From: Clostridia bacterium
GTDB lineage: Bacteria; Bacillota; Clostridia; Christensenellales; Borkfalkiaceae
Reading direction: 5' to 3'
NCBI GenBank assembly: GCA_028720205.1
Contig: JAQYLE010000058.1
Span: 1 to 41,179 of the forward strand
Length of the DNA: 41,179 nucleotides
Shown: positions 32,252 to 41,179 of the stretch, piece after piece
Layout: each line of letters begins with the position of its first letter
How positions within the stretch are numbered: the first letter of the stretch is position 1
The notes under the pieces: generated by a model
The model's database searches: none
The model's input: only the letters and a program-made list of their open reading frames with translations
Told to the model about the DNA's origin: nothing
Position numbers and translations under genes: made by a program

Positions 32252-33243
32252 AGCGCTTCTACCGCCATACATATGGTGGGCGGAATCGCCGCCCTCGTCG
32301 GCGCGATTTTTCTTGGTCCGCGTATCGGAAAATACACGCGGGATAAAAACGGAAAAATCGTAAAAGTAAACGCGATTCCCGGTCATTCTGTAACGCTGGG
32401 CGCGTTGGGTTGCTTTATTTTATGGTTCGGCAAAAATTACACGTCGACGACCCCGTGGGTGCCGTGGGCGTGCATATGGCAAACGGCGTCTGGGGAACGA
32501 TTGCCGTCGGTTTGTTCGCCGATTCAGAACTGGCAGCGGAATACGGCCTTGCCGCGGGCGGACTTTTCACCACGGGCAGTTTCGAACAACTCGGTCTGCA
32601 ACTTTTAGGTTTCGTTACCGTAGCCGCGTGGGCGGTTGTTACCATGACAATCACCTTCTTTTTGCTCTCCAAAGCGCAGAAAGGAATCCGCGTTTCAAAA
32701 ACGGAAGAAATCGAAGGCCTGGATCGTTGCGAACACGGCTTACCTTCCGCATACGCAGACTTTATAGGCGTATCGTTGCAAAGCGAAATTTTAGAAGAAG
32801 GCGACCCGGAAACGCCTTTAACGCAGGCTGACGGAGCGATAAACGAATCGGCCTTACCCGCGCCGATCCGCGAACCCGGCAACGCGGCGAAGATGCGCAA
32901 AGTCGTTATAATAACCAAACAATCCATGTTGGAAACTTTAAAAACCGCTTTGGAAAAAATCGGCATTTCGGGTATTACGGTAACGCAGGTGCTCGGATGC
33001 GGCGTACAGAAAGGCGCCGACGAATATTACCGCGGCGTAAAAATGAATATGTCGCTTCTGCCCAAAGTAAAAGTGGAAGTTATCGTATCGAAAGTTCCCG
33101 TACAGGACGTGATCGACGCGGCGAGAAAAGCGTTGTATACGGGGCACATCGGCGACGGAAAAATCTTTGTGTACGACGTGGAAGACGTGGTAAAAATACG
33201 TACCGGCGCGCGCGGTTACGACGCCTTGCAGGACGAAACGTAA
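32252..33243 (+). pseudogene. amt: Broken ammonium transporter-PII fusion gene (amt-glnK)
   Basis: Two frames carry pieces of one gene. The first (to about 32430) reads STAIHMVGGIAALVGAIFLG and then GHSVTLGALGCFILWFG, the middle of an Amt protein. The second (from about 32425) resumes with KLHVDDPVGAVGVHMANGVW, which in intact Amt lies roughly 100 residues later, and continues through the last membrane segments into a complete PII domain (116 residues from 32893: RKVVIITKQ, T-loop YYRGVKMNM, then GHIGDGKIFVYDVEDVV). So the N-terminal third is missing, about 100 residues are deleted at 32425-32435, and the frame is shifted. The PII part is intact but has no ribosome binding site of its own. 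An assembly join could give the same picture. Confidence 0.85.
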
Positions 33244-33297: not shown

Positions 33298-33326
33298 TTG
33301 ACATAGAAAGACTTTTATGATAAACT
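33298..33326 (+). promoter_or_regulatory. Promoter of the riboswitch-controlled operon
   Basis: TTGACA (33298-33303) is followed after 17 bp by TAAACT (33321-33326). The -35 box is perfect, the -10 box poor. It lies about 40 nt before the riboswitch aptamer. Confidence 0.6.
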
Positions 33327-33366
33327 GATAATAAAGACAATAAAAAAACGTTTATGTTAATAAACG

Positions 33367-33442
33367 AAAATACAGGCAAAGCATACCAAAGTGTGCGACG
33401 CAAAGCTATAGGGCCTTGATGATCAGTGGCAGCCAGTTGCAA
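33367..33442 (+). ncRNA. c-di-GMP-I (GEMM) riboswitch aptamer
   Basis: The conserved GEMM-I core is present in order: ACAGGCAAAGC, a short hairpin (GCATACCAAAGTGTGC), the signature GACGCAAAGC at 33397-33406, AGGGCCT, then a second arm ending in TGGCAGCCAGTTGC. These blocks match the published c-di-GMP-I consensus (GACGCAAAGCC with GGCCUAA and GGUAGC-type 3' element) with small variations. It lies in the leader of three exported-protein genes. Binding of cyclic di-GMP should fix the aptamer fold and affect the terminator that shares its 3' bases. Confidence 0.92.
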
Positions 33443-33475
33443 ACGGATTTTCTGTTTACAACCGGCTGTTTTTTA
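33430..33475 (+). terminator. Intrinsic terminator sharing the riboswitch 3' end
   Basis: CAGCCAGTTGCAAAC (33430-33444) pairs with GTTTACAACCGGCTG (33454-33468) over 15 positions with two mismatches, followed by six T. The left arm includes the last conserved aptamer bases, so aptamer and terminator should compete; this geometry predicts that c-di-GMP turns the operon on. Confidence 0.85.
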
Positions 33476-33524
33476 TTATAAACGCCGTTTCGTTTAAAAA
33501 ATATTAAAAAAAGGAGAGATGCGA

Positions 33525-34376
33525 ATGAAAAAGCCGCGCAAAAAATTTGCCGTCTGTGCGATTGTTTTATCGGCTGTTTTTTGCGCCGTGCAATTAACCG
33601 CATCCACTTACGCCTGGCTTATCAACTTCGTTACGGGGGGCAATTTCGGTTACACCGCAAACGAACTTCCTCCGTACGCTCTCGAAATCGCGCGTATCCC
33701 CTATTCGGAAACAGGTCGCGCCGAAACGAACAGAACCTATTCCGAATGTAAAAATTATAAAATAGAAACAAACGACGACGGTACGCATCTTGCGGCAAAT
33801 CTTACCAACATGACTTTCGGCACGATTGACAACGTTGCTCAGTTAAAACCGGAAAATATCGTATATCTGCGCCTTACCGTTCCGAAAGAATCGGGCGATA
33901 CGCTGAAATTGAACTTTCATTATAAGCAGGAAAATTTTATCTCCCTTTATCAGAAGACGGTTGACGCAGACGGAAACGAGGGCACTCCGCAAGAGGTTAC
34001 GGAAGAAAGCGTTTTGACTGCTCTGCTGAACGTAGACAAGTCCTCCGGCGCAGAAACGTCCTCCGGCGACGCGTATCTGTTGTACGACGCGGCGGTGTCC
34101 GATATTGCATATGACGCAAACCGGATCGCAGAAAATATTCCGTTCGCCCAAAACGAGGCGGATTATCAGCGGTTCGGCACTTCGCAGACTGCTTTTAAAA
34201 CGCTGACGAACGAGAATTACGACAAGGAAAAAGACTACTATATCTACATAAAAGTAATACCGAATTTATCGGTTTTCGCGTATTCGATAGAATATCTGTC
34301 GGCAGTTATGCCCTGCTATATGTATTTCAATATCGGCGCGATATTCGATTCGGCAAATCCCGAAAAAACTATTTAA
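33525..34376 (+). CDS. Exported protein, TasA/camelysin-like N terminus (first gene of c-di-GMP operon)
   Basis: The 283-residue product has a basic start (MKKPRKKF), a hydrophobic segment and then STYAWLINFVTGGNFGY, the pattern seen after signal cleavage in SipW-dependent matrix proteins (compare 'TWAAF' in TasA). The mature part is beta-rich (LKPENIVYLRLTVPKESGDT, LKLNFHYKQEN), with a proline- and lysine-bounded strand resembling the PGD segment of TasA-like folds. No sortase motif is seen. AGGAGAG is well placed for the ATG at 33525, too close for the one at 33519. It is directly under the riboswitch. A role in surface fibres or matrix is inferred only. Confidence 0.7.
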   Translation: MKKPRKKFAVCAIVLSAVFCAVQLTASTYAWLINFVTGGNFGYTANELPPYALEIARIPYSETGRAETNRTYSECKNYKIETNDDGTHLAANLTNMTFGTIDNVAQLKPENIVYLRLTVPKESGDTLKLNFHYKQENFISLYQKTVDADGNEGTPQEVTEESVLTALLNVDKSSGAETSSGDAYLLYDAAVSDIAYDANRIAENIPFAQNEADYQRFGTSQTAFKTLTNENYDKEKDYYIYIKVIPNLSVFAYSIEYLSAVMPCYMYFNIGAIFDSANPEKTI

Positions 34377-34388
34377 GCGAGGCATAAA

Positions 34389-37300
34389 ATGGGCAAAACA
34401 AAAAAGACGATATGCATAATAACGATCGTGTTGCTTAGCCTGCTTACCATGGCGACAACGCTCGTTACGTTTGCCTATTTTTCTAAAAAAGAAATTTACG
34501 ACGGATATTTCAGCGGAGAAGTCGAACTGTTATTCGACAGATTAGACGGCGACGGGTTGAAAGCCTACACGGGAGATACAAACGCAGAGATAACCGACGA
34601 ATTATCCGATAACTGGGGCAGCAAAGAATACCCCTACGTAATATCCGACGTCCGTCACCTCTACAACCTTTCCGAACTGCAAAGACTCGGCTATTTTCAT
34701 AAAAAATACATAAGCCGAAACACCGAAACCGACTTTACTCATATCCCCTACTTTCTGGTGTGCACGCCGCAATATACCCCCGCTCTGATAAACGGCACAA
34801 ATTTTAAAGGGATCACTTCTATAGGCACCGATCAATATCCTTTCATCGGTTCGGTACGGGGTGTGAAAAGCACGCAGGCGCCGATAACCGTCAACGGAAA
34901 AACATGCGATACTTCTGCGATTTATAACGTAAAAGTTTCCGGCAACCCCGCCAACGCCGACGCGGGACTGTTCGGGCATATCGGTTTTCTGGGCAATAGC
35001 GCCGCAGTTGATGATAATACGGGAATGTTTTCGGGGCAAATTTCCACTCTTTCCAACCTGGTGCTGGTTGACGTGCAGGTAACCGTTCAATCGAGCCTTT
35101 GGAAAACGGTTACTTCCTTTTTAGAAGATATCGCTATCAACGCAACGGGCGGTCACAGATATTCTTTCACCGAGTTGTATAACCCGAATGATATGACAGA
35201 TTATAATAAAGTTCCGCATGAAAACCACCATATAGGCATTCTTGCGGGGCACGCCGCCTATGCAAAAATCGAATATATCAGCGTGTATTACTCTGCGGAC
35301 GATATCGTTGCGATCGATCTGAAAGATGAAACAAAGGTGGGCGAAACCGAGGCTAATTATCTTTCCGCAACGGGCATTTTAGGCTTTATCGACAACTTAA
35401 ACCCCACCGTAGCGGAAGACGGTAACGGCAATTTATCCGTTTCCGCTGGTTCAGGCGACAGCGTGAGCGATATTTCTTACGGCACGGCGGGCGGCGGCGG
35501 TATCTCTTCCGGTACGAAGCCCGGCTACGTATTAGCGTCGGAGATGTATGCTAAATACCGCTACACGAAAACGGACGAAGTAATCACAGAGGACGACGAC
35601 GGCACGATTTATCTTAAAGACGCTGTTGACAAAGACGGCAACGCGCTTTGTACCGAATGGATCCGCGACCGCATTTTATGGGGAACGGAAGCGACGGGCA
35701 GATATTATTTTTACGACGGCGTGTTCACTTTTGCGCTTTCCAGCCAGGAAGACGTTATCGAGCCCACGTGGAACAACGGTGCCGCCGACGAATTTTCAAT
35801 AGGTTCCACCGACCCTTCCGAATGGAAAGCAAAACCGATGAAGGGTAACGAATCCGTCGTTTCTTTTGTAAAAGAAATATCAAGTTTGGCTGATTTGAAT
35901 ACCGTTGCAAGCAGCGGACAACCGATATATATCGGCTATGAGCAAAGCGATGAGCAAAGCGATACCGTCTTTCTGATGTCATTAACAAACAGTGAAGAGG
36001 ATTCGGGTTTTCTTAATAATTTTTCAGACAATAAATATAAAACTTATGCGTTTCGGAAATCTTTTTTAATCGATCAAAATATAATTTCTTCTATTCAGCA
36101 AACTTTGGGGTCGATTAAGAATCAAGACGACCCGAGATTACCGCGAAAATACGACGGAACGGTCAACACGGATATCATAGAAAATATCCGCAACTATCAA
36201 CTTCTCAATCTCGGTAGTTCTGAAGATCTGAATAAATTAAAAGAGCAATACACGATTAACGTTACTACGGCAAACAACGGCTATACTTTCCAAAGCGGAA
36301 ACAGTAAATTGGCATTGTTGTGTAGAAACGGCCTTTTCTCCGGGTATACGTACAGTGTATGGGCGGGTGAAAGCAAACCAACCGGAAATTGGTACCAATC
36401 GTATGAATGGCAGACAAGCGCGACCGTAACTTATGAGGGTAATTCTTTCATCATCAGATATGATCTGACGGTTAACAATTCCAACTCTGCAACCCGATAC
36501 GTATCGTTTAACGGCGATACAAGTGCTGATAATTCAAGATTTCAAGGGACAAGCGACGGTACGAGTGCTTACGTAAACCTGAAATTTTATACCGTTGAAG
36601 GCACAAGCGACTTAAACTTCGGGCGCGTAACATTCGACCCGGTCGACGATACGTCGGACGAAACGGATTGTTATACGTTCAACGCGGGCGAAACGGTGCT
36701 GTTTGCCTCTTCCTCCCACACAAACGACGCAAACGGCAACATTTCCACAACAGATACAACTTATACGGTAACGCCGCTGAACGAACTCGGCTGGAATAAC
36801 GGCAGCGGAAAAACCGTTTCCGCCGACGATCTGCAAAGCAAATTCAAAATGGTGAAAGGCATTACGTTCGGCGCGTCTTTCAACCTGCTCAACGGCACGT
36901 TAGGTTCAAGCGGAATCATCACGGCGCCTGTGGGCACGAACGGTACCGAAGCCAACATTCCGCAAAGTTGTATCGCGTTTCGCATAAACAACGCAAATAA
37001 AGAAAACAAAATCCGGGTTATCGTTTCCGTAGCCATTTCCGAATTTTACCCCGGCGAAGAAGGCTACGATCTCGGCGCCTACACCCGCTATTTTAACCTT
37101 TGGAAAATGGAAGAAGCGGGGCAAAGCGCCGTTCAGGTATTCGAAGCAACGGGCGAAAACCTTCTGGATCGCTTTGAAGTGCCGCGTTCGCACCCGTATG
37201 AACCGGGAAAAACAGCCGCAAGCGCCGATTCCGAATATATCACGGTACAGTATAACGACAGTTCATACAGATGCTATTTAAACGGCAACCGGGTGCTCAT

Positions 37301-37841
37301 CGCCTACGAATTTTCTGTGGATACCACCGCGGAAGGACACGGCGTAGGAGTTTTCTGCCTGGGCATGTCGGGCATCGGCTCAGACGGTCAAGCCGTTGAA
37401 AACGTTCCAATGGAAATCGTTTATTTCTCGGCGGAGGGCGTAGCGAGCGCAGGGCGCGACGGAGCCTCCTGTTCGCAAATAGGAACGATCGATTTCGTAT
37501 ACGACTACGAAAGCGTCATCGTCACGGTAACGGAGACTTCCGAAACGGATACAAGCGGCAACGAAGTATATTCCAACTACTATCCGTCTTATTGTATCAT
37601 GTATTTCAACACCGCCAAACACGCCGATACGTATACCGACGCTTCCCCTGTGTATATCGACGTAAACTTTGAGCACGTAAAGGTGAGAAGGTACGTTTTA
37701 GGGGAAGCGGAAACGCCCGATTCGGACGAAGACCATAACGATACCCCCAGCCGAAGCGTAATAGCGGCTATTCTCGGCGGCGACAAAAATACCTGTATCG
37801 TGCAATATTCGCGCTACGCCGATAATGTGCAGATAAAATAA
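34389..37841 (+). CDS. Giant exported surface protein with GLUG-like repeats (second gene of c-di-GMP operon)
   Basis: The 1150-residue product begins with one membrane segment (residues 6-30) followed by TFAYFSKKEIYDGYFSGEVE, again the SipW-substrate-like 'AYFS' pattern. Residues 80-240 have GLUG-like steps: ISDVRHLYNLSELQRLGYF, GLFGHIG and TLSNLVLVDVQV, which suggest a beta-helix. The rest is beta-rich, acidic, Thr/Ser/Asn-rich and not recognised. A perfect 12-bp duplication (35940-35963) encodes EQSDEQSD, a sign of recent slippage. No LPxTG, no C-terminal membrane helix. GCGAGG lies before the ATG, 12 nt after the previous gene. It may be an adhesin or fibre component. Confidence 0.7.
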   Translation: MGKTKKTICIITIVLLSLLTMATTLVTFAYFSKKEIYDGYFSGEVELLFDRLDGDGLKAYTGDTNAEITDELSDNWGSKEYPYVISDVRHLYNLSELQRLGYFHKKYISRNTETDFTHIPYFLVCTPQYTPALINGTNFKGITSIGTDQYPFIGSVRGVKSTQAPITVNGKTCDTSAIYNVKVSGNPANADAGLFGHIGFLGNSAAVDDNTGMFSGQISTLSNLVLVDVQVTVQSSLWKTVTSFLEDIAINATGGHRYSFTELYNPNDMTDYNKVPHENHHIGILAGHAAYAKIEYISVYYSADDIVAIDLKDETKVGETEANYLSATGILGFIDNLNPTVAEDGNGNLSVSAGSGDSVSDISYGTAGGGGISSGTKPGYVLASEMYAKYRYTKTDEVITEDDDGTIYLKDAVDKDGNALCTEWIRDRILWGTEATGRYYFYDGVFTFALSSQEDVIEPTWNNGAADEFSIGSTDPSEWKAKPMKGNESVVSFVKEISSLADLNTVASSGQPIYIGYEQSDEQSDTVFLMSLTNSEEDSGFLNNFSDNKYKTYAFRKSFLIDQNIISSIQQTLGSIKNQDDPRLPRKYDGTVNTDIIENIRNYQLLNLGSSEDLNKLKEQYTINVTTANNGYTFQSGNSKLALLCRNGLFSGYTYSVWAGESKPTGNWYQSYEWQTSATVTYEGNSFIIRYDLTVNNSNSATRYVSFNGDTSADNSRFQGTSDGTSAYVNLKFYTVEGTSDLNFGRVTFDPVDDTSDETDCYTFNAGETVLFASSSHTNDANGNISTTDTTYTVTPLNELGWNNGSGKTVSADDLQSKFKMVKGITFGASFNLLNGTLGSSGIITAPVGTNGTEANIPQSCIAFRINNANKENKIRVIVSVAISEFYPGEEGYDLGAYTRYFNLWKMEEAGQSAVQVFEATGENLLDRFEVPRSHPYEPGKTAASADSEYITVQYNDSSYRCYLNGNRVLIAYEFSVDTTAEGHGVGVFCLGMSGIGSDGQAVENVPMEIVYFSAEGVASAGRDGASCSQIGTIDFVYDYESVIVTVTETSETDTSGNEVYSNYYPSYCIMYFNTAKHADTYTDASPVYIDVNFEHVKVRRYVLGEAETPDSDEDHNDTPSRSVIAAILGGDKNTCIVQYSRYADNVQIK

Positions 37842-37869
37842 TTTTACAACAACCCTATGCAAAACAACC

Positions 37870-38568
37870 ATGAAAAACACTAAACCGTACAAAAAAACGC
37901 TGTTGTGCCGAACCGTCGTAATCCTGTTATTGCTTGTAGTGCTTGGAATAAACGCCTTCATTTATTTCAACCGTTCCTGGGCTTGGTTTGCCGATAACAA
38001 AACTATACAGGCGAACGGCGCGAAAGTCAACCTCGCCTACTTCGGCGTTTCCGACGTCTACTTTTCAAAAGAGGCAGGCGAGGTTGATTATACCGAAATT
38101 TCAAGTTGGGATCACCTGTTTCTCAATCTGTCCCCCGGAGAAAGCGTTTCGATAAAGGCGCAATATACGAATCATTCCGACGTAACGCGCAAGTTAAGCG
38201 TATATTTCGGTTTGCCTTACGGTAGTACGGAAACGCCCGTTATAAAAAACGGAGATACAGGAGATAAGTACTATTATTTAAGCACGCAGTTGAAAATAAC
38301 CGGAATCGCGGTAAACGGCGTTACTCAAAGCATTGACGAAAACATGTTTCTGATGACTCCGCCGTCGGATAAAATCGCCTACGAATCCGAGCAAACGCCG
38401 CAAAACTTACCTGTTGCAGAAATCAACTTGCCTTCCGGCGAAAGCGCAACAGCGGAATTAACCATAGAATTTATCAATTATCCCGATATAGATCAGAACG
38501 ATTATCAGGGCTTCGGCAAAGGAACGGAAAACTGCTTCCGACAACTGATCGCGTATATAGACGCCTGA
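37870..38568 (+). CDS. TasA/camelysin-like exported protein (third gene of c-di-GMP operon)
   Basis: The 232-residue product has a membrane segment (about residues 13-32), then SWAWFADNKTIQANGAKVNL, close to the mature start of camelysin/TasA proteins. The segment LFLNLSPGESVSIKAQYTNH, then SDVTRKLSVYFG, parallels the TasA stretch where a 'L.PGD' turn precedes strands of the beta-sandwich. The C-terminal half repeats the idea (INLPSGESATAELTIEFINY). No ribosome binding site is evident before the ATG at 37870, which is 28 nt after the previous stop. No SipW signal peptidase gene is present in the window. The resemblance is by eye and needs a profile or structure search. Confidence 0.7.
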   Translation: MKNTKPYKKTLLCRTVVILLLLVVLGINAFIYFNRSWAWFADNKTIQANGAKVNLAYFGVSDVYFSKEAGEVDYTEISSWDHLFLNLSPGESVSIKAQYTNHSDVTRKLSVYFGLPYGSTETPVIKNGDTGDKYYYLSTQLKITGIAVNGVTQSIDENMFLMTPPSDKIAYESEQTPQNLPVAEINLPSGESATAELTIEFINYPDIDQNDYQGFGKGTENCFRQLIAYIDA

Positions 38569-38609: not shown

Positions 38610-38643
38610 AAAAAATGACGTTTCCGTAAAGCGGAAACGTCAT
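38610..38643 (-). terminator. Intrinsic terminator between convergent genes
   Basis: ATGACGTTTCCG (38615-38626) and CGGAAACGTCAT (38632-38643) form a perfect 12-bp stem with a 5-nt loop. On the minus strand it is followed by TTTTTTCG, so it ends the GGGtGRT transcript; it may also stop the plus-strand operon. Confidence 0.88.
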
Positions 38644-38676: not shown

Positions 38677-39678
38677 TTATTTGTTCATGCCTTCCTCTAC
38701 GGCAACGGCTACGGCAACCGTAGCGCCTACCATAGGGTTGTTGCCCATACCGATGAGCCCCATCATTTCAACGTGCGCGGGAACGGAGGAAGATCCTGCA
38801 AACTGCGCGTCCGAATGCATTCTGCCCATGGTATCCGTCATGCCGTACGACGCGGGGCCCGCTGCCATATTGTCGGGGTGCAGCGTTCTGCCCGTGCCGC
38901 CGCCGCTGGCTACCGAGAAGTACTTCACGCCGTTTTCCACGCACCATTTTTTATACGTGCCCGCAACGGGGTGCTGGAATCTGGTGGGATTGGTGGAGTT
39001 GCCCGTAATGGAAACGCCCACCTTTTCTTTCTTCATAATCGCCACGCCTTCGGGCACGTCGTCGGCGCCGTAGCATTTCACCTTGGCTCTTTCGCCGGTT
39101 GAAAACGCCTTTTCGTACACCACTTTCACCGTTTCGGTGGAGTGATCGAATTCCGTTTCCACAAACGTAAAGCCGTTGATGCGGGAAATGATATACGCCG
39201 CGTCTTTGCCGAGTCCGTTTAAAATAACGCGGAGCGGATTTTTTCTAACCTTATTGGCGTTCTGCGCGATGGAAATAGCGCCTTCCGCCGCCGCGAACGA
39301 TTCGTGCCCCGCAAGAAAGCAGAAACATTCCGTTTCTTCGGAAAGGAGCATCGCGCCCAGATTGCCGTGTCCTAAGCCCACAAGGCGGTTTTGCGCCACG
39401 GAACCGGGTACGCAGAACGCCTGCAGACCGATACCGATTGCCGCCGCCGCTTCGCTGGCTTTTTTGCAGCCTTTTTTAATGGCGATCGCCGCGCCCACCG
39501 TGTACGCCCATACGGCGTTTTCGAAGCAGATCGGCTGCGTGCCTCTTACGATTTTATCGCAATCCACACCTTTTGAAAGGCAGATATCTTTACATTCTTC
39601 AACGGAAGAAATGCCGTATTCTTTCAATACGCCGTTGATTTTTTCTATTCTTCTTTCATATCCTTCAAATAATGACAT
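38677..39678 (-). CDS. GGGtGRT family protein
   Basis: The 333-residue product carries the family's naming motif, here SGGGTGRTLHPDNMAAGPAS, followed by SDAQFAGSSSVPAHVEMMGL and a C-terminal Ala/Val-rich helix. It is widespread in anaerobic Firmicutes and methanogens and regularly next to a NifU-like scaffold; no reaction has been assigned to my knowledge. Cysteines occur singly (ISSVEECKDICLSKGVDC near the N terminus). Soluble, no signal peptide. GGAGG lies before the ATG. It starts 18 nt after the scaffold gene, and both are under the promoter at 40483-40511. Confidence 0.85.
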   Translation of the reverse strand: MSLFEGYERRIEKINGVLKEYGISSVEECKDICLSKGVDCDKIVRGTQPICFENAVWAYTVGAAIAIKKGCKKASEAAAAIGIGLQAFCVPGSVAQNRLVGLGHGNLGAMLLSEETECFCFLAGHESFAAAEGAISIAQNANKVRKNPLRVILNGLGKDAAYIISRINGFTFVETEFDHSTETVKVVYEKAFSTGERAKVKCYGADDVPEGVAIMKKEKVGVSITGNSTNPTRFQHPVAGTYKKWCVENGVKYFSVASGGGTGRTLHPDNMAAGPASYGMTDTMGRMHSDAQFAGSSSVPAHVEMMGLIGMGNNPMVGATVAVAVAVEEGMNK

Positions 39679-40648: not shown

Positions 40649-41179
40649 TTATTCCTTTTCTTTCTGAATATTATACACGCATTTCCGTACAAGCGCGCGC
40701 GGCGAAATCTTCATTAAAAACGTTAAAAACCGGTTGGAAAAACCGTGTACTGCCACGGCTTTTCCCTTTTCGGCTTTTTTATACCCGTATGCCGCCGTCT
40801 TTTTCGCCGAGGCGATTTTTAAATTTTTGAACAACCCCGATTTTTCAAGATCGGCGGCGCTTTCAAAACCCGTCTGCGTAGGACCGGGGCACAGCGCGGA
40901 GACCTTTACCCCGTATTTTTTCACTTCCTGATGCAATCCCTCGCTGAACGAAAGCATAAACGCCTTCGAGGCGTAATAAACGCTCATCAACGGCCCCGGA
41001 GCGAATGCGGCTACGGACGCCACGTTTAATATTACGCCGCTGTTTCGTTGCACCATTGCGGGCAGAAACAAACGCGTAAGCGCCACGGGCACGGCGGCGT
41101 TCACCTGCACCATATCGGAAAGTTTTTCTTCGCTCTCGCGGTAAAATTCGCAAAAATCCCCGAAGCCCGCGTTGTTGAC
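40649..41179 (-). CDS. Short-chain dehydrogenase/reductase, 5' end beyond window
   Basis: The visible 176 codons run off the window edge without a start. They begin with VNNAGFG, the NNAG motif that follows the third strand of the Rossmann fold, then the catalytic Ser in GVILNVASVAAF and YYASKAF (YxxxK), and CPGPTQTGF. These mark a classical SDR, an NAD(P)-dependent oxidoreductase. The N-terminal cofactor motif TGxxxGxG must lie just outside. The C-terminal LMKISPRALVRKCVYNIQKE resembles the membrane-associated DltE-like SDRs. Substrate unknown. Confidence 0.88.
   Translation of the reverse strand, partial: VNNAGFGDFCEFYRESEEKLSDMVQVNAAVPVALTRLFLPAMVQRNSGVILNVASVAAFAPGPLMSVYYASKAFMLSFSEGLHQEVKKYGVKVSALCPGPTQTGFESAADLEKSGLFKNLKIASAKKTAAYGYKKAEKGKAVAVHGFSNRFLTFLMKISPRALVRKCVYNIQKEKE

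Follow-up and report, generated by a model that had tools for sequence, protein, structure and literature searches.

A c-di-GMP-I riboswitch operon of predicted surface proteins and its probable SipW/CoCoPALM partner operon in a Clostridia bacterium

In this study, we describe an operon of three genes, g1, g2 and g3, that lies behind a cyclic di-GMP (c-di-GMP) riboswitch of the c-di-GMP-I (GEMM-I) class in a Clostridia bacterium of the family Borkfalkiaceae. The operon is on contig JAQYLE010000058.1 (assembly GCA_028720205.1), the whole of which, at 41,179 nucleotides, is the window that was analyzed. Positions without a prefix are window coordinates, the window's own genome is G000, and the window contig is G000:C58. 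We consider it likely that this is a c-di-GMP-induced surface-protein operon whose products are substrates of a co-regulated SipW/CoCoPALM apparatus that is encoded elsewhere in the genome. The operon behind the riboswitch is real and conserved, its products are probable surface proteins, and their SipW processing would probably come in trans from a CoCoPALM-type operon behind the genome's other GEMM-I riboswitch.

The leader is predicted to be an ON switch

The features of the operon are as follows.

33298..33326, + strand: sigma-70-type promoter, TTGACA-N17-TAAACT, read from the sequence; 10 of 12 consensus positions match
33365..33444, + strand: c-di-GMP-I (GEMM-I) riboswitch aptamer; Rfam RF01051, E 1.9e-8
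33430..33474, + strand: intrinsic terminator, stem 33430–33468 followed by T6; its 5′ arm is the 3′ end of the aptamer, and it is predicted to form only without c-di-GMP
33513..33518, + strand: GGAGAG, likely ribosome-binding site of g1, found by sequence inspection
33525..34376, + strand: g1, 283 residues, predicted SipW-type exported protein; basic start, single hydrophobic segment, STYAWL
34389..37841, + strand: g2, giant protein of 1150 residues, TFAYFSKKEIYDG; predicted exported surface protein, N-terminus TFAYFS
37870..38568, + strand: g3, 232 residues, predicted SipW-type exported protein; SWAWFADNK, LSPGE turn, DUF6672 match under cut-off

The original prediction, which was made from this sequence alone, described a promoter, a GEMM-I aptamer, a terminator and three closely spaced genes, and that description is accurate. 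The aptamer scores 56 bits against a gathering score of 35, and the gaps are 12 nucleotides between g1 and g2 and 28 nucleotides between g2 and g3. Promoter-like sites of the quality listed above are not above chance in the scan used, which found 8 where 8.2 were expected. Of 8 operon-B leaders, 7 have a best promoter-like pair within 90 bases upstream of the aptamer that matches at 10–12 of 12 positions, as do 5 of the 11 other GEMM-I leaders; these cross-leader scans, for promoters and terminators alike, were run without a shuffle control. The window leader has a better fold than any of 200 shuffles (z −3.7), and it is 75% alike to the leader of the other GEMM-I riboswitch of its own genome, on contig C6, and equally to one leader of genome G016.

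The expression platform is coupled to the aptamer, as the terminator stem (33430–33468) overlaps the aptamer end at 33444. The same layout recurs in 16 of the 19 leaders examined, where the terminator starts 5–16 nucleotides before the aptamer ends. Because terminator and aptamer compete for the same bases, the riboswitch is predicted to act as an ON switch. With little c-di-GMP, the terminator at 33430–33474 would form and transcription would halt, and c-di-GMP would stabilize the aptamer, which would keep the 5′ arm of the terminator so that the operon is transcribed. The alternative that the riboswitch is an OFF switch or is nonfunctional, such that c-di-GMP does not induce the operon, is very unlikely given this competition in 16 of 19 leaders and the strong covariance-model score.

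The three proteins have SipW-type N-termini

Substrates of SipW have a basic start and one hydrophobic segment, followed by an aromatic motif rather than AxA. The proteins g1, g2 and g3 each have a basic start and one strongly hydrophobic stretch near the N-terminus, which is followed by STYAWL, TFAYFS and SWAWF, respectively, so that the SipW-type N-termini claimed at the outset for all three (YAWL, FAYFS and WAWF) are there, as is the LSPGE turn claimed for g3. When the 31 open reading frames of the window were scanned with a strict SipW motif, g1, g2 and one spurious frame were flagged and g3 was missed, as its motif follows NRS. Neither an LPxT motif nor a second strongly hydrophobic segment was found in g1, g2 or g3.

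None of the three proteins matches a Pfam or NCBIfam profile over its cut-off. Chance-level matches or none were obtained for g1 and g2, and g3 reached 21.5 bits with DUF6672 (PF20377), below the gathering cut-off of 24.3; only one of the four members of the g3 alignment, the window's own g3, matched that family. By profile none of g1–g3 is a peptidase, and sipW does not lie beside its substrates in this operon. The giant g2 has a conserved N-terminal module (WGSKEYPYVIS..RHLYNLSELQ..GYF) with the further motifs IG..QYPFIG and GLFGHIG. AlphaFold gave a beta-rich but poor model for g3 alone (predicted local distance difference test score, pLDDT, 47; predicted template modeling score, pTM, 0.49) and an even lower-scoring one for the N-terminal part of g2 with two relatives (pLDDT 30, pTM 0.27), and both models were too poor to be used as evidence of fold.

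Two SipW-like peptidases are encoded behind the second riboswitch of the genome

The window's own genome (1.94 Mb in 82 contigs, 96% complete) has two GEMM-I matches, the one in the window and one at C6:28126–28204. The operon behind the latter begins with genes for an EAL-domain protein, a membrane protein, an STFAWFS protein of 270 residues and a TTFSWFA protein of 185 residues, and these are followed by a SipW-like peptidase (SipW1), an McrB-like AAA protein (525 residues), a DUF2357 protein (777 residues), a second SipW-like peptidase (SipW2) and a GGDEF-EAL protein. It had been proposed that processing of g1–g3 must come from elsewhere, and the finding of two SipW-like peptidases in the operon headed by the genome's other GEMM-I bears this out. 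The genome has three matches to TIGR02228, one of them over cut-off: SipW2 passes, and SipW1 falls just under (50.4 versus 51.85). The two C6 peptidases reach 76 and 74 bits with the Bacillus SipW model NF046067, whose cut-off is 190. Between these two peptidases, on contig C6 of G000, lie the following.

L009:12210–13787: McrB-like membrane AAA protein
L009:9793–12126: DUF2357 protein

The arrangement of an AAA/DUF2357 pair flanked by SipW-like peptidases is also found in G007, G016, G321, G278 and G422, and in G033 only the second peptidase is visible before the contig ends. The Walker A motif GISGTGKTS, LDEMN and NxDD are present in all eight aligned AAA homologues. The best-fitting profiles for the C6 AAA protein are below cut-off (McrB NF008457, E 7.9e-5 and 21.6 bits; AAA_5, 14.8 bits). 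In the eight aligned proteins, the C6 one included, the N-terminus is hydrophobic and, by eye, continues into a coiled-coil-looking region ahead of the motifs; no FtsB-type profile is among the Pfam matches of the C6 protein at E ≤ 0.1. The C6 DUF2357 protein matches PF09823 with 35.1 bits against a cut-off of 23.3. This Pfam assignment applies to G000, and the DUF2357 proteins of the other genomes are assigned by alignment.

Proteins of c-di-GMP turnover surround the C6 operon, with GGDEF matches at C6:28453 and C6:17666, two more on contig C17, and EAL matches in the first and last genes of the operon, which suggests feedback. In the stand-alone EAL protein encoded first after the C6 riboswitch (L009:17252–18055), the position of the EAL glutamate reads R by eye (VAFRVQTV), and because of this residue the protein may bind c-di-GMP rather than cut it.

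GEMM-I riboswitches of the family mostly precede the two operons

Among 398 genomes of the family, 32 have a total of 44 GEMM-I matches, as found with stricter Infernal filters that can lose weak riboswitches. Behind each match, up to 6 kb downstream on the same strand was searched by tblastn (E ≤ 1e-4) with 18 proteins of the two operons, taken from G000, G007, G565 and G321. Homologues were found behind 35 of the 44, and behind 31 of 40 when the loci that supplied queries (G000:C58, G000:C6, G007:C16 and G565:C24) are left out. A motif scan flagged four of the other nine, of which G576 was dropped by eye as an ordinary membrane protein; the three that were accepted (G669:C34, G653:C1 and G017:C43) have SipW-type N-termini only. 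Of 21 control segments, three were dropped as they hold parts of the system (window 31000 forward, L099 and L012 reverse), and tblastn matched none of the remaining 18. Two of the 18 were flagged by motif alone (L009 1–6800 and L098 reverse), and thus motif-only calls are weak.

A different view of the window operon is that it is an ordinary c-di-GMP-switched adhesin operon, exported through general Sec and signal peptidase I, and that the SipW/CoCoPALM operon shares only the signal and has substrates of its own. Riboswitches of this kind on single surface proteins are known, for example upstream of cbpA in Bacillus thuringiensis according to the portion of PMC7423583 used here, and the two operons lie on different contigs in G000. 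Against this view, the hydrophobic segments of g1–g3 end in AWL, AYF and AWF, which resemble the SipW-substrate rule given above and not AxA, and most GEMM-I riboswitches of the family (the 35 of 44) belong to the two operon types. Further, in G321, from another family of the order, both sets form one continuous locus: GEMM-I, a membrane protein, two STYAWF proteins, a second GEMM-I, a g3-like gene, a g2-like gene (2183 residues), SipW1, AAA, DUF2357-like and SipW2. From these results, we regard the adhesin view as improbable and favor g1–g3 as substrates of the SipW/CoCoPALM apparatus.

Two other kinds of GEMM-I locus were seen. In the window's own genus, a GEMM-I (L129, G576 contig C56) heads different genes, by eye a VTC-like gene and one for a membrane protein, and there is no homologue of the two operons within 6 kb of it. 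In another genus, GEMM-I precedes a giant protein (L126:369–4703 and L128:362–6291) and then an exported-looking protein (AAFAALY/ASFAALF) that is cut at the segment end. Pfam, which was run on L126, places LRR_4 and aBig_2 in its giant protein. These genes are perhaps exchangeable cargo operons, and they were not counted as system genes in the 35 of 44.

The g1–g2–g3 set recurs behind GEMM-I

The original prediction had named gene order behind GEMM-I RNAs as a check on the operon, and the g1–g2–g3 set does recur. In G565, from another genus, GEMM-I, g1, g2 (1771 residues) and g3 lie on one contig in the order seen in the window, and in G016 and G033 the same set is broken by contig ends in a pattern compatible with that order. 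Homologues of g1 stand behind GEMM-I in G016, G033, G565 and G617, the last of which belongs to the window's genus; its GEMM-I stands with a g1-like gene and with a g2 relative that is truncated at the contig end. The genomes G626, G278 and G321 each have GEMM-I with a g2-type giant and one or two small proteins of SipW type. In these three genomes the g1-like and g3-like roles were assigned mostly by eye, with the g3 match of G626 also given by tblastn. The cluster order is different in G278 (L037:9370–14080), where two small SipW-type proteins come before the giant, behind a single GEMM-I that has no overlapping terminator.

Of 61 genomes sampled from the family, 3 have relatives of g3, with the window's own counted. 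A profile of the g2 N-terminus (alignment A1) matched 8 genomes among the 398 of the family and 4 among 297 at order level, the window's own being in both, for 11 genomes in total, several of which have weak E-values near 1e-6. GEMM-I precedes the g2-type gene in 8 of these 11. In the family, 7 of the 8 genomes with g2 belong to the 32 that have a GEMM-I (P 8.5e-8 by a hypergeometric test, uncorrected for kinship). In G282, the g2-type frame leaves the contig and no GEMM-I was found there. Viral contigs yielded no relatives of profiles A1 or A3.

A small AW-motif protein that adjoins a g2-type giant is also encoded in one Anaeroplasmataceae and one Bacilli genome (L035:9238–11893 and L036:155–4161), and neither locus has a GEMM-I over threshold. 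The pairing of small protein and giant may therefore be older or wider than the link to the riboswitch.

Membership in the TasA/camelysin and GLUG families

It had also been claimed that the proteins belong with TasA and camelysin and that g2 is a GLUG-like partner. This amounts to a TasA-type fiber system, in which g1 and g3 are subunits of TasA/camelysin fold and g2 is the GLUG partner. Consistent with such a system are the SipW-type N-termini, the LSPGE turn and the beta-rich model of g3 (at its pLDDT of 47), as well as a sub-threshold match of the G016 g3 homologue to Peptidase_M73 (residues 84–223, E 0.056, 13.7 bits versus 22.5). When profiles that include the signal regions were compared by hhalign with a TasA/CalY-like profile, the probability was 47 for the g3 family (26 columns near the C-terminus), 63 for the g1 family (66 N-terminal columns) and 92 for the STFAWFS family (30 N-terminal columns).

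The remaining tests point the other way. Peptidase_M73 (PF12389) has no match in g1, g2 or g3 and none in 8 genomes with the system at E ≤ 0.1, although the profile does match in Bacillus subtilis and, at E ≤ 0.001, in 53 of 398 phylum genomes. When only mature regions were compared, the hhalign probability fell to 4.0 for g3, 0.2 for g1 and 0.8 for the STFAWFS family. The TasA/CalY-like profile was built from 11 motif-recognized proteins among 30 loci (L151–L180) from the phylum matches, and the query profiles are shallow, with 4 (g3), 5 (g1) and 9 sequences; the positive control, M73 split against itself, gave 100. At this profile depth, the comparisons detect a common secretion signal but no common fold. 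A sequence search of the Protein Data Bank gave one chance match (E 0.73) and nothing else, so that TasA membership has no support from the M73 profile, from that search or from the mature-region comparison. The GLUG label fails as well, since no match to Pfam GLUG, which we take to be PF07581, was found for g2 or for seven giant proteins of relatives. Likelier fiber subunits are the STFAWFS proteins encoded in the C6 operon, and they too fail the mature-region test. Taken together, we consider a TasA-type fiber system unlikely, and we retain the reading of g1–g3 as surface proteins processed by the SipW/CoCoPALM apparatus.

Relation to known systems and a proposed mechanism

In Bell et al. 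2024 (PMC11090510), in the portion drawn on here, one clade of McrB homologues is characterized by an NxD motif and by fusion to an FtsB-like part, and it is accompanied by McrC homologues (DUF2357) and proteins of the signal peptidase family. This is the system called CoCoPALM, which is named briefly, with pilus assembly as a guess at its function and fuller treatment deferred to a later paper. Like CoCoPALM as described there, the C6 operon encodes an McrB-like AAA protein with NxD, a DUF2357 partner and members of the signal peptidase family; the N-terminal part of the AAA protein, which looks like membrane and coiled coil, may correspond to the FtsB-like part. The same portion of that account does not mention a c-di-GMP riboswitch, AWF substrates or a g1–g2–g3 operon, and a word search of it returned neither TasA nor biofilm. 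Among open-licence PubMed Central papers that use the word CoCoPALM, only Bell et al. 2024 and its preprint are on the subject, judging by title.

The tapA-sipW-tasA operon of B. subtilis and sipW-bsaABC of Clostridium perfringens encode secreted matrix proteins that depend on SipW, according to the parts of PMC9674648 and PMC7395162 that were used. In their M73 relatives, an aromatic motif of the kind found in g1–g3 follows the signal segment. In contrast to those operons, the window operon has no M73 homology over cut-off and no sipW, and it has a giant partner, a c-di-GMP riboswitch and an McrBC-like pair in a companion operon. To call it a system in place of tapA-sipW-tasA, as was done originally, is therefore misleading; it appears to belong to a c-di-GMP regulon of two operons that includes a CoCoPALM-type machine. 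Riboswitches upstream of surface or colonization-factor genes are described, in the excerpts used, for the Clostridium difficile riboswitch regulon (PMC6200980) and for B. thuringiensis CbpA (PMC7423583). Here, the proteins are different and lack an LPxT motif, and the riboswitches are mostly tied to one SipW/CoCoPALM system. None of the open-licence PubMed Central papers found on riboswitches with SipW, TasA, camelysin or McrBC, or on SipW with McrB, describes the arrangement in its title or the opening lines of its abstract, and an account elsewhere is possible; the riboswitch mentions in the parts of PMC7395162 and PMC4877802 at hand are unrelated to it. The parts are of known kinds; what appears to be new is their combination, together with the regulon and the link to substrates.

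In the mechanism that we propose, g1–g3 would be exported by Sec with SipW-type signal peptides and cleaved by SipW1 and SipW2 of the C6 operon, and substrate and peptidase would rise together under their common riboswitch class. The short SipW-type proteins of C6 would be the likely fiber subunits, the membrane McrB-like GTPase and its DUF2357 partner would form an assembly or export-control machine of CoCoPALM type, and the giant g2 with the small g1 and g3 would most likely be an adhesive or tip/cargo part of the surface structure. For CoCoPALM systems, this reading suggests substrates and names c-di-GMP as a candidate input signal. It points to one bacterial family in which a class of RNA switch mostly serves a single surface apparatus, and it allows the role of the McrBC-like pair to be tested directly. 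A broader reading, which we offer tentatively as possible rather than probable, is that CoCoPALM is a c-di-GMP-switched surface-assembly machine and not a defense system. An McrBC-derived membrane GTPase, a DUF2357 activator and two SipW peptidases would export or polymerize AWF fiber subunits, and separate GEMM-I operons such as g1–g2–g3 would supply exchangeable giant tip adhesins or cargo. If true, the motor of a restriction enzyme would have been repurposed for cell-envelope assembly.

Several observations weigh against the link between g1–g3, the riboswitch and the C6 machine. TIGR02228 matches in all 12 chosen genomes (11 over cut-off), whether or not they have GEMM-I, and likewise in 8 of 14 control genomes. 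The presence of SipW-like peptidases is thus by itself no evidence, and it is their position behind the second riboswitch that counts. The g1, g3 and STFAWFS families are alike over 36–47 N-terminal columns only, as a common signal would give, and this likeness is no proof of shared structure. Only 7 of the 32 family genomes with GEMM-I have a g2 match, and the g1–g2–g3 operon is for that reason at most an optional part of the system. The g2-type pair occurs without an adjacent GEMM-I in G422 and G400, and the genomes compared are fragmented assemblies. An overlapping terminator was not seen in the operon-B leaders of G626 and G278 or in one G016 leader. Finally, 9 of the 44 family GEMM-I have no tblastn homologue of either operon behind them, and six of these also lack an accepted SipW-type N-terminus (G423:C65, G297:C4, G576, G412, the second site of G669:C67, and G623:C53 with 198 bases in view).

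Flanks of the operon

The operon is flanked by a P-II/GlnB-like gene on the + strand at 32900–33243 and by a convergent gene at 38677–39678, the end of which resembles a GGGtGRT protein; these names were given by eye. Between g3 and the convergent gene, a hairpin at 38615–38643 is terminator-like for the minus strand only, as its + strand copy runs into A and not T.

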